Source: Micromonospora chaiyaphumensis
GTDB taxonomy: Bacteria > Actinomycetota > Actinomycetes > Mycobacteriales > Micromonosporaceae
Assembly: GCF_900091435.1 (NCBI RefSeq)
Contig: NZ_FMCS01000013.1
Coordinates: 62,001-126,000, forward strand
Direction: 5' to 3'
DNA: 64,000 nucleotides
Below the pieces are notes generated by a model. That model did not search any database and was not told the DNA's origin. It saw only the letters and a program-made list of their open reading frames with translations. This document shows, one piece after another, positions 59,962 through 63,301 of this stretch. The first letter of the stretch is position 1. Each line of letters starts with the position of its first letter. The position numbers and the translations under genes were made by a program.

Positions 59962-61719
59962 GTGACCACCGTCGCACCCAAGCCGGTCGTGACCCGGCCC
60001 TGGCCGGTCCGCGAGCCGGTCAAGGGGTCGGCCCTCGCGCGGCTGCTGCGCACCACGGACGCGAAGCAGATCGGGATCATGTACATGGTCACCGCGTTCG
60101 CGTTCTTCATGATCGGTGGCCTGATGGCCCTGATCATGCGCGCCGAGCTGGCGCGACCGGGGCTGCAGTTCCTGTCGCCCGAGCAGTACAACCAGCTCTT
60201 CACCATGCACGGCACGATCATGCTGCTGTTCTTCGCGACGCCGATCGTGTTCGCCTTCGCGAACTACGTGGTGCCGCTGCAGATCGGCGCGCCCGACGTG
60301 TCGTTCCCCCGCCTGAACGCCTTCGCCTACTGGCTGTACCTGTTCGGCGGCACCATGGCCACCGCGGGCTTCATCGCCCCGGGCGGCGCGGCCGACTTCG
60401 GCTGGACGGCGTACACGCCGCTGAGCACCGCCGAGCACGCGCCGGGCGTCGGCGCGAACATGTGGGTGGTCGGCCTGGCCATCTCCGGTCTGGGCACCAT
60501 CCTCGGCGCGGTCAACCTGATCACCACGATCCTGACCCTGCGCGCGCCCGGCATGACCATGTTCCGGATGCCGATCTTCACCTGGAACATGCTGGTCACC
60601 AGCCTGCTGGCCATCCTGGTCTTCCCGCTGTTGGCCGCCGCGCTCTTCGCGCTCGCCGCGGACCGCCTGATCGGCGCCCACGTGTACGACCCCGCCACCG
60701 GCGGCCCGATGCTCTGGCAGCACCTGTTCTGGTTCTTCGGGCACCCCGAGGTCTACATCATCGCGCTGCCGTTCTTCGGCATCATCACCGAGATCATCCC
60801 GGTCTTCTCCCGGAAGCCGATCTTCGGTTACAAGGGCCTGGTCGCCGCGACCATCGCCATCGCCGCCCTGTCGATGAGCGTCTGGGCGCACCACATGTTC
60901 GCCACCGGCCAGGTGCTGCTGCCGTTCTTCAGCTTCCTGAGCTACCTGATCGCCGTGCCGACCGGCATGAAGTTCTTCAACTGGATCGGCACCATGTGGC
61001 GGGGCCAGATCACCTTCGAGACGCCGATGCTCTTCGCGGTCGGCTTCCTGGTGACCTTCCTCTTCGGTGGCCTCACCGGTGTGCTGCTGGCCAGCCCGCC
61101 GCTGGACTTCCACCTGCACGACTCGTACTTCGTGGTGGCGCACTTCCACTACGTGCTCTTCGGCACCATCGTGTTCGCCGTGTTCGGCGGCATCTACTTC
61201 TGGTTCCCGAAGATGTTCGGCCGGATGCTCGACGAGCGGCTCGGCAAGATCCACTTCTGGCTGACGATGATCGGCTTCCACACCACCTTCCTGGTGCAGC
61301 ACTGGCTCGGCGCCGAGGGCATGCCCCGCCGGTACGCCGACTACCTGCCCGGTGACGGCTTCACCTTCCTGAACACGCTGTCCACGATCGGCGCGTTCAT
61401 CACCGGCATCTCGACCCTGCCGTTCATCTGGAACTGCTGGAAGTCGTACAAGACCGGTCCGGTGGTCGAGGTCGACGACCCGTGGGGTCACGGCAACTCG
61501 CTCGAGTGGGCCACCAGCTCGCCGCCGCCCCTGCGGAACTTCGACCGGATGCCGCGGATCCGCTCCGAGCGGCCGGCGTTCGACCTCAAGTTCCCGGAGC
61601 TGGCCGCCGGCCAGACCCTGGCCGGCCCGCCCGAGGGTGGCGCCAAGCCGCTCACCAGCGAGTCCGACGGTGGCGCCAGCTACCAGGAGGACACCGAGGG
61701 CCGGCTCGAGAAGAGCTGA
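59962..61719 (+). CDS. ctaD: Cytochrome c oxidase subunit I (aa3-type)
   Basis: 585 aa, twelve membrane spans. Haem and copper ligands are present: [18 protein letters not shown] (His-Tyr crosslink pair), AHHMFATG, and HFHYVLFG. The K-channel region [15 protein letters not shown] is intact. The long hydrophilic C-terminus is typical of actinobacteria. It is the terminal oxidase catalytic subunit in the membrane. The other cta genes are not adjacent, so it is either a separate locus or a paralogue. GTG start with GGAGG 6 bases upstream. Confidence 0.96.
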
Positions 61720-61738
61720 CCCAGCCCGAACCAACGAC

Positions 61739-61770
61739 GGGCGCCGCACCCCACCCGGGGTGCGGCGCCC
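61739..61770 (+). terminator. Strong terminator after ctaD
   Basis: A perfect 14-bp stem (GGGCGCCGCACCCC and complement) with a 4-base loop. Confidence 0.85.
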
Positions 61771-61826
61771 GCCGCATTTCCCGCAGGCCCCTAGGCCGCG
61801 CCCTCCCCAGGCCCCGCCCCGGTCGC

Positions 61827-61886
61827 GTTGATCAAGAAGTTTGCGTCAGGAACCGCCGCGTTCTTGACGCAAACCTCTTGGTCAAC
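61827..61886. repeat. 60-bp hairpin repeat, copy 1
   Basis: Two 22-base arms (61827-61848 and 61865-61886; left begins GTTGATCAAGAAGTTTGCGT) pair with 2 mismatches across a 16-base loop. The arms match those of copy 2 almost exactly while the loop differs. Located in the gap between ctaD and the convergent MFS gene. Confidence 0.88.
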
Positions 61887-61990
61887 CCATGCGTGAGCTG
61901 TCGAGCACCAGGCCGGGGAGGTGGCGCTCTCCCAGCGCTGCCGAACACCCCCACCTCGCCGAGCTGGCGCACGCCCCCTCGCCCCGCGGC

Positions 61991-62050
61991 GTTGATCAAG
62001 AGGTTTGCGTCAAGGGTCGGCCCGGATCTGACGCAAACCTCTTGGTCAAC
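61991..62050. repeat. 60-bp hairpin repeat, copy 2
   Basis: Arms 61991-62012 (GTTGATCAAGAGGTTTGCGT...) and 62029-62050 pair with 1 mismatch across a 16-base loop unlike that of copy 1. Same orientation, length and loop size as copy 1. It ends 33 bases from the MFS gene stop. Confidence 0.88.
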
Positions 62051-62083
62051 CCTGTGGGGAGCGGGGTCAGGGGGCAGTGTGGG

Positions 62084-63301
62084 TCAGGGAGCTGTGGGGG
62101 TCAGCTCGGGTTCCGTGGTCGGTAGCGGGGCTCGGTCGCGGCGGTGGCGGAGCTCGATCGGGAGGACCGCCAGGGCGACCAGCACGCCGATCGCGCCGGT
62201 GACCGCGAACCCCCAGGCCGGCGCCGAGGCGTCGATCACCGCGCCGGCCAGCGGCGCCCCCAGCGCGATGCCGACCGTGACCGCCGAGCCGTGCAGGCCC
62301 ATGGCCTCGCCGCGCACGCCGGCCGGGGCCAGCCGGCTCACCGCGTCCGAGGTCGAGGCGATGGAGGGCGCGCAGAGGGCGCCGGCCGGGATGAGCGCCA
62401 GGCAGAGCAGCCACCAGTGCGCGCCGCCCAGCCCGACCGGGATGGTGGTCACGCTCAGCGCCGCCACGAGGGCCAGCGGGGAGAGCGAGCGGGTGACCGC
62501 CCCGTACGCGAAGCCGCCCACCAGCGAGGCGACCGCCCACATGGCCAGGACGGCGCCGGTCCAGCCGACCTCGCCGCCCTCGCGCAGCACGGCGACCACG
62601 GCGACGTCGGTGCCGCCGAGCACCAGGGTGGCGGCCAGGCTGACCGCCAGCACGGCGAGCAGCCGGGGGGTGAGCCACTCCCGGCGGGGCACCTTGCGGG
62701 CCGGGCCGGCCGGCTCGTCGGCGGCGCGGGTGGGCGGGTCGAGCAGCCAGAAGCAGATGCCGGAGGCGACGATCCCGGCGCCGACCGCCCACATGGTGAG
62801 CCGGGGCGACACGGCGGCGGCCATGGCCACGGCCAGCGCGGGGCCGACCATGAACGACAGCTCCACCGACATCGAGTCGAGGGCGTACGCGGGGCGGCGC
62901 CGCTCGGCCGGCACCAGCGCGGCGACCGACTGGCGGACCACCGAGAAGACCGGCAGCGCGAACAGGCCGGCCAGGAACGCGGTGGGCAGCAGCACGGGGT
63001 ACGACAGCGTCGGCGCGCTGGCCCAGAAGACGCCCTCGGCGAGCGTGGTGAGCAGCAGCACCGGGCGCAGCCCGCGCCGGTCGACCAGCCGGCCGAGCAG
63101 CGGGGAGCCGAGCGCGGCGCCGACGGTGGAGGCGGCGCCTACGAGCCCCGCCGCGCCGTAGCCGCGACCGAGGTCGAGCACGACGTGGAAGGTGAGCGTC
63201 ACGCCGGTCGCGGTGAGCGGGATGCGCGCCAGCACCGAGATCAGCAGCAACGACCGGAGACCGGGCAGGGCGAGCGCCTCCCGGTAAGGCTTCAAGTTCA
63301 C
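62084..63301 (-). CDS. MFS transporter
   Basis: 405 aa, twelve predicted membrane helices. Between helices 2 and 3 LLGRLVDRRGLRPVLL matches the MFS signature (G-x-x-x-D-R-x-G-R). DHA1-like drug exporters of this length are common. Substrate unknown. GTG start with GGAGG 11 bases upstream. The C-terminus is polar and short. Confidence 0.9.
   Translation of the reverse strand: MNLKPYREALALPGLRSLLLISVLARIPLTATGVTLTFHVVLDLGRGYGAAGLVGAASTVGAALGSPLLGRLVDRRGLRPVLLLTTLAEGVFWASAPTLSYPVLLPTAFLAGLFALPVFSVVRQSVAALVPAERRRPAYALDSMSVELSFMVGPALAVAMAAAVSPRLTMWAVGAGIVASGICFWLLDPPTRAADEPAGPARKVPRREWLTPRLLAVLAVSLAATLVLGGTDVAVVAVLREGGEVGWTGAVLAMWAVASLVGGFAYGAVTRSLSPLALVAALSVTTIPVGLGGAHWWLLCLALIPAGALCAPSIASTSDAVSRLAPAGVRGEAMGLHGSAVTVGIALGAPLAGAVIDASAPAWGFAVTGAIGVLVALAVLPIELRHRRDRAPLPTTEPELTPTAP

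Follow-up and report, generated by a model that had tools for sequence, protein, structure and literature searches.

Two hairpins between ctaD and a convergent transporter gene of Micromonospora chaiyaphumensis belong to a dispersed family of short palindromes, present in most genomes of the genus, which the sequences suggest is best read as a REP-like gene-end family without a REP-associated tyrosine transposase (RAYT). Its arms are far better conserved than its loops, its copies lie mostly at gene 3' ends, and the flanking DNA changes from C-rich to G-rich at the hairpin itself. We propose, giving it an even chance, that the hairpins are gene-end boundary elements that are recognised as DNA sequence and would act on transcripts arriving from both sides.

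The window pair and the extent of the family

The window, by which we mean the whole stretch of 64,000 nucleotides that was analysed, carries ctaD (COX1) on the forward strand and the gene of a major facilitator superfamily (MFS) transporter on the reverse strand, and both hairpins lie in the gap between these convergent genes (Table 1). The initial annotation of this DNA had placed two 60-bp hairpins there in the same orientation, and both the pair and its setting were recovered as described. The copies are direct repeats, 164 nt apart from start to start and 80% identical over 71 nt. At up to 3 mismatches the arm pattern matches the window 4 times, whereas 100 shuffles gave 0.00 matches on average, and the RNA folds of the hairpins reach -36.5 to -41 kcal/mol (z -8.8 to -9.9). 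The 22-base arms and 16-base loops of the initial annotation can be drawn for the two window copies; the arm shared across the family measures 21 nt, with a loop of 18-19 nt. In copy 1, about half of which is A+T, the stem reaches 27 nt through chance pairing of the outer 6+6 nt of the loop.

Table 1 Features of the ctaD/MFS region of the window
Feature	Position	Strand	Remarks
Cytochrome c oxidase subunit I (ctaD)	59962..61719	+	PF00115; copy 1 begins 107 nt past the stop
GC-rich hairpin behind ctaD, 18-nt arms	61735..61774	+	Separate from family A; probably the ctaD intrinsic terminator
Copy 1 left flank, C-rich	61767..61826	+	GC skew -0.36 over 60 nt
Hairpin copy 1, family A (60 bp)	61827..61886		Arms 61827-61847 and 61866-61886
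Copy 1 variable loop, 18 nt	61848..61865		Outer 6+6 nt pair by chance
Hairpin copy 2, family A (60 bp)	61991..62050		Arms 61991-62011 and 62030-62050
Copy 2 variable loop, 18 nt	62012..62029		
Copy 2 right flank, G-rich	62051..62110	+	GC skew +0.55 over 60 nt; reaches into the MFS gene end
MFS transporter	62084..63301	-	PF07690; stop 33 nt beyond copy 2

A separate terminator behind ctaD had also been postulated, and a GC-rich hairpin with 18-nt arms is indeed found there. Because a hairpin with the same GGGCGCCG core is present in 19 of the 23 relatives whose ctaD region was scanned, this hairpin is likely to be the true ctaD terminator. A terminator scan of the window region found none (0). 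An Rfam search of the hairpins yielded, up to an E of 1, 8 matches under the gathering score and none above it; these, mostly to microRNA families, were taken as chance.

Across the M. chaiyaphumensis genome (6.74 Mb, 22 contigs), the arm pattern at up to 3 mismatches matches 43 times forward and 39 times in reverse, and a reversed control pattern 0 times. Sixty-five of these matches fall within 33 copies of the hairpin, here called type A, two of which are the window pair, and 17 fall within a sister type B, with arm GTTGATCATGARGTTRGCGGC; one further type A arm carries 4 mismatches. Type A copies are 60 nt long in 30 of 33 cases and 61 nt in the other 3. Every type A arm of the M. chaiyaphumensis list belongs to a pair, and 57 loci of two genomes yielded 121 paired arms and 0 solitary ones. 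Neighbouring hairpin pairs within 250 nt were met in 5 cases.

Of 151 genus genomes, 124 contain the type A arm (at most 1 mismatch), each with between 1 and 121 matches. The hairpin is thus neither limited to the window pair nor missing from relatives, the outcome that in the initial annotation would have spoken against its reading. The exact combined A/B pattern occurs, in a family-wide sample, in 35 of 38 genus genomes and in 3 of 162 others. At least 112 stretches of named genomes contain the exact hairpin, and among the matches listed (80 loci) all are from Micromonospora, a Verrucosispora and a Micromonosporaceae. Arm strings and topic were also searched in the open-access literature, outside which most subscription papers and preprints lie, and no description of such Micromonospora repeats was found there.

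Arm conservation, gene-end placement and exchange of hairpin types

Divergence was compared at 20 orthologous pairs of copies between M. chaiyaphumensis and the relative G022, of which 16 are supported by both flanks and 4 by one flank only; for 13 of the 33 M. chaiyaphumensis copies the G022 set contained no ortholog. Differences affect 34 of 840 arm positions (4%), 112 of 362 loop positions (31%) and 230 of 600 positions of the 15+15-nt flanks in an ungapped comparison (38%); since copies were found by their arms at loose thresholds, this comparison favours conserved arms, and drift at the loop rate would mostly be missed. Nine of the 34 arm differences are at position 12, a free A/G position, and 6 at position 11. 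The earlier proposal that the hairpin is under selection is thus well supported by the difference between arm and loop divergence at orthologous sites. The loops, which had been called unrelated, are so in the two window copies, but those of orthologous copies are recognisably related, and in 30 M. chaiyaphumensis copies the loops show weak base preferences only, at their ends.

Within the 30 of 33 copies that are of length 60, the two loop halves do not covary (65 pairs within copies vs 64.5 when shuffled), giving no sign of a structured loop. At position 12, A or G is chosen independently in each arm, and in the transcript sense of 71 tandem copies 20 G.U and 17 A.C cells were counted (p 0.74). 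Because the loops do not covary and A.C is as common as G.U, the arms look conserved as sequence. RNA pairing alone does not appear to explain this conservation, which would be better explained by sequence recognition, probably as DNA.

Placement relative to genes was taken from our own simple codon-based gene caller, whose starts may be wrong. Among the 113 type A copies with usable context (M. chaiyaphumensis and relatives mixed, orthologs included and copies not independent, as also in the other pooled counts on pairing, gene ends, flanks and codon positions given here), 57 are convergent, 51 tandem and 5 divergent, 17 of 130 copies having been set aside (15 at a locus edge, 2 inside a called gene). 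The corresponding figures for the 33 copies of M. chaiyaphumensis alone are 13 convergent, 14 tandem and 4 divergent, with 1 inside a gene and 1 at an edge. For 108 of 119 A and B copies the closest gene boundary is a 3' end, a count that convergent copies cannot fail, and this placement behind genes fits the REP-like character that had been suggested for the hairpins. Tandem A and B copies are nearer to the 3' than to the 5' gene end in 48 of 54 cases, the median distance being 23 nt on the 3'-end side and 146 nt on the side of the following start. Of 165 three-prime-facing arm ends, 20 supply the stop codon themselves, through the TGA of the arm (GT-TGA); the commonest single arm-to-gene-end distance is -5, in 18 copies, and no other distance is seen in more than 5. 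The 3' flank is G-rich in 80 oriented copies, and no U-tract follows the stem.

These features bear on whether the hairpins are ordinary intrinsic terminators, in which the RNA stem alone would matter and the common sequence would reflect recent spread by copying. We consider this rather unlikely. Recent copying would not give 4% divergence in arms and 31% in loops, and A.C is as common as G.U in the sense strand, yet a single mismatch among 21 pairs weakens the stem only a little, and an intrinsic terminator would suit both the 3'-end placement and the very stable fold. Streptomyces terminators, according to the excerpts of PMC12207403, likewise have weak U-tracts and long stable hairpins, and relatives have other hairpins at orthologous 3' ends; the skew flip described below, however, is missing from most other hairpins of these genomes. 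A plain RNA terminator would in our estimate fit the placement, but neither the arm conservation nor the skew. The hairpins share with Streptomyces and other actinobacterial intrinsic terminators (PMC12207403, excerpts) a stable stem behind genes with a weak or absent U-tract and differ from them in an arm sequence that is conserved across copies and species.

Hairpin types are exchanged at orthologous gene ends. In one case the hairpin behind a gene is of type B in M. chaiyaphumensis and of type A in M. trifolii (L115) and M. phaseoli (L135), a site picked from 415 syntenic pairs whose loci were partly chosen by hairpin. At the convergent junction L060, where matched flanks are 88-95% identical among relatives, M. 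chaiyaphumensis has type A, G142 type C, G134 type D, G096 a B-like hairpin plus type E, and G022 none of these types. Junction L036 carries type A in M. chaiyaphumensis, G096 and G134, and no A hairpin in G142 and G022. For the ctaD/MFS gap, 29 relatives were compared (best matches, not all spanning the gap): both hairpins are present in G022, G134, G096 and G064, the last with more changed arms than the other three, 5 relatives have a single, partial or B-like hairpin, and 20 have no arm at up to 5 mismatches. Several of these arm-less relatives have quite different long palindromes in the gap.

Other palindromes were noted along the way. Long near-perfect ones without skew flip lie in the ctaD/MFS gap of relatives at L074 1242-1299, L089 1966-2055 and L082 1066-1125, and palindromes of this gap have sequence around GCGGTATACCTC, and GATATGACTGTCA. 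At the L060 junction and at L256-L261, the arms of the hairpin types share an outer ATC core (mostly GATC), followed by A/T-rich bases and a G. Type D hairpins are 67-68 nt long, with an arm around GATCTTGCACTTT, and occur at L110, L116, L128 (two), L139, L146, L175, L181, L198 and L257. Another dispersed type consists of 47-nt palindromes around GATCTTGGACAGTT (L043 1098-1144 and 1342-1388; L050 1040-1086), which in the M. chaiyaphumensis genome lie far from called genes and near contig ends, with little skew flip.

GC skew in the flanks and in neighbouring genes

A switch from C- to G-skew lies exactly at the hairpin. Over 20 non-coding nt, C makes up about 60% of the 5' side and G about 56-57% of the 3' side; gaps without hairpins come much closer to parity. 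Of 96 A and B copies with at least 20 non-coding nt on each side, 89 show the expected sign on both flanks, as do, in M. chaiyaphumensis alone, 29 of 32 type A (the count omits 1 of the 33) and 14 of 16 type B copies. The mean skew step over 60 nt is 0.848 (137 copies), against -0.003 at positions shifted by 400-900 nt (sd 0.015, largest 0.042). In the window, copy 2 has the full flip (-0.39/+0.55) and copy 1 the left side only (-0.36/+0.02). Most other hairpins of these genomes, unlike family A, lack the flip, though there are exceptions, among them L110:2516-2561 at -0.57/+0.40. Type D has it in 8 of the 9 copies with both flanks usable, type E hardly (4 of 7, with small values). An extension of the stem through complementarity of the flanks was considered and dropped, as the excess was too small (9.03 vs 8.66 +/- 0.22 with re-paired flanks).

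In tandem gaps the downstream flank of type A is G-rich in 68 of 68 copies and the upstream flank C-rich in 41 of 42. The skew profile, which fades over about 150 nt, is alike in 77 convergent, 71 tandem and 10 divergent copies, the divergent set being a weak one that includes two orthologous pairs, shows both signs in 9 of 10 copies, and has only two copies with both starts within about 105 nt, unseen genes being possible in the others. Because the downstream skew is equal in tandem gaps and divergent copies show it too, transcription does not look like its sole cause.

Neighbouring genes carry the skew as well. Among 205 genes from several species whose ends lie at most 60 nt from an A or B hairpin, third-position composition at a distance of 30-60 nt is 71.5% C, 18.2% G, 8.7% A and 1.0% T, and at 300-600 nt it is 52.1% C, 43.5% G, 1.8% A and 2.7% T. 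The GC3 skew of these genes, -0.56 to -0.59 in the nearest 60 nt, weakens to -0.26 at 120-180 nt and to -0.09 at 300-600 nt; it stays at about -0.1 throughout in 394 control genes from an unselected stretch of M. chaiyaphumensis DNA. The control DNA, 400 kb of the M. chaiyaphumensis genome chosen regardless of hairpins, contained no A or B hairpin in our survey. First and second codon positions are shifted also, to -0.43 nearest the hairpin. On the outward strand, the third-position change reads as C replaced by G and T.

Between orthologs, the ratio of A/G to C/T differences is 3.0 with and 0.34 without a hairpin at 60-120 nt, and 1.5 and 0.93, respectively, at 0-60 nt, the no-hairpin class being mostly the ctaD/MFS set (740 of 1132 pairs). 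Third-position ortholog divergence showed no clear rise near hairpins, and hypermutation as a simple rate increase was rejected on this ground. When orthologous genes with and without an A or B hairpin were compared, C3 skew was stronger with the hairpin in 10 of 12 groups; third-position C/G is.658/.283 with the hairpin,.604/.333 without and.53-.54/.42-.43 far away, a small difference in groups some of which share a junction and some of whose 'absent' members have other hairpin types. The intermediate skew without an A or B hairpin fits past occupancy, other hairpin types, or a pre-existing skew that hairpins prefer. Since the presence/absence difference is small, some groups share a junction and some 'absent' members carry other types, such a preference may play a part.

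The symmetry of this footprint is best fitted, among the readings weighed here, by a DNA-processing site, at which the palindrome would be a centre of cruciform cleavage, fork stalling or local repair synthesis and gene 3' ends would mark tolerated sites. The skew is antisymmetric and independent of gene orientation, it is found in coding third positions, where G of the incoming strand is replaced by both C and A, and the ortholog substitution spectrum at 60-120 nt is changed; yet overall divergence at third positions shows no clear increase close to hairpins, gene groups without A or B hairpins keep part of the skew, and we know of no enzyme for such processing. On balance we regard a DNA-processing centre as unlikely, its good fit to the symmetric skew notwithstanding. 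We also suggest, tentatively, that the palindromes may be centres of local strand-specific cytosine mutation, in which the outward 5'->3' strand would lose C to T and G for about 100-180 nt on either side and third codon positions would be reshaped.

Likeness to known repeats and a possible gene-end boundary

Like REP, BIME and REPIN elements, the hairpins are dispersed short intergenic palindromes near 3' ends, and their termini supply stop codons. The excerpts of PMC3733652 describe REPs as intergenic, mostly in convergent and unidirectional gaps near 3' ends, with GTAG REPs providing TAG stops and lying within 20 bp of 3' ends, with dimers whose spacers vary and which can fold as one hairpin, and with a GTAG or CGTC tag at one end, outside the base pairing. 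In the excerpted text of PMC2817692 REPs are said to aid Rho-dependent termination, and in that of PMC12306157 those at most 15 nt from a stop codon are reported to affect translation.

Unlike REPs and REPINs, the Micromonospora arms are always paired and were not seen in long arrays, no RAYT lies beside the repeats examined, and there is neither an unpaired GTAG or CGTC tag nor a fixed outer-flank tetranucleotide; the CGTC with which type A arms end faces the loop and is part of the paired stem, and type B arms do not end in it. The GC-skew flip sets them apart as well, as 16 E. coli REP clusters, located with what we take to be the REP consensus, showed none. Paired DNA uptake sequences, which act as terminators, are inverted pairs of a dispersed motif behind genes, and uptake sequences also occur singly. 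The Micromonospora hairpins resemble the paired form in being inverted pairs of a dispersed motif behind genes and differ from uptake sequences in that no solitary arm was found.

A selfish element of the REP/REPIN type, mobilised by a RAYT (a Y1 tyrosine transposase), would have the observed inverted pair, variable middle and dispersed copies, and would supply stop codons as reported for GTAG REPs in the excerpts of PMC3733652. The hairpin-rich genomes G009 and G011 do have a gene with PF01797, the domain that RAYTs carry (PMC2817692, excerpts). Yet PF01797 was found in 10 of 31 genomes searched and in none of the hairpin-rich G003, G007, G008 and G012, of which G008 and G012 are one-contig genomes, and five PF01797 loci (the M. 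chaiyaphumensis remnant and those of G014, G006, G002 and G011, G011 being represented by the only locus inspected from it and G009) have no A or B arm in the stretch inspected. The search for a REP-associated tyrosine transposase, a check that the initial annotation had suggested, thus did not bear out such a partner. Because RAYTs are described, in the excerpts of PMC2817692, as always flanked by their REPs, while these four hairpin-rich genomes gave no PF01797 match and these five PF01797 loci lack arms, movement by a RAYT is disfavoured, and we judge it improbable. The remnant in M. chaiyaphumensis (G000:C12:400782-401081) is of a Y1 transposase (PF01797) with one internal TAG, and no A or B arm lies in the 6 kb inspected at this locus.

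Dispersal, near-fixed length and terminal inverted repeats would also be expected of a miniature inverted-repeat transposable element (MITE), with two such repeats, of a DDE transposase. This we hold to be highly improbable: no target-site duplication was seen, exact end repeats of 2-8 nt being at or below chance in the 76 copies with both flanks non-coding, the loops share weak base preferences only, and the 3'-end placement is strong.

From dispersal, placement, arm conservation, type exchange and the skew flip, all seen in the sequences themselves, we infer a boundary or terminator action. Of these features, the type exchange and the skew flip, like the overlap with stop codons, go beyond the initial annotation. 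Family A hairpins would occupy gene 3' ends as a two-way boundary, which would most likely stop or trim transcripts arriving from either side. The arms would be read as DNA sequence and not only as an RNA stem, either by a candidate protein bound to the palindrome or through an extruded cruciform, and the family would have spread by means other than a RAYT still encoded in these genomes. An attractive part of this boundary reading is Rho and its rut sites, as the RNA nearing the hairpin would be C-rich and G-poor. Against a boundary role stand the missing U-tract and the fact that ctaD already has its own GC-rich hairpin; a purely transcriptional role, moreover, does not predict an equal flip in tandem and convergent gaps, nor the 10 divergent copies.

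Were the boundary reading true, an antibiotic-producing genus would use sequence-specific gene-end palindromes, apparently without a RAYT, and gene-end elements would be exchanged between types at fixed slots. If instead the palindromes were centres of mutation, a short bacterial palindrome would be regularly opened or cut and repaired (for example with AP-site bypass), leaving, at slots with hairpins of changing type, the kind of trace that a miniature replication origin or cytosine-deaminase hypermutation would leave. The skew flip, for which no precedent was seen in the open-access literature searched, is the more general point: it is a quantitative footprint, with a mean step of 0.85 against 0.00 at shifted positions, and it raises the question of the fate of DNA at short palindromes in high-GC bacteria.
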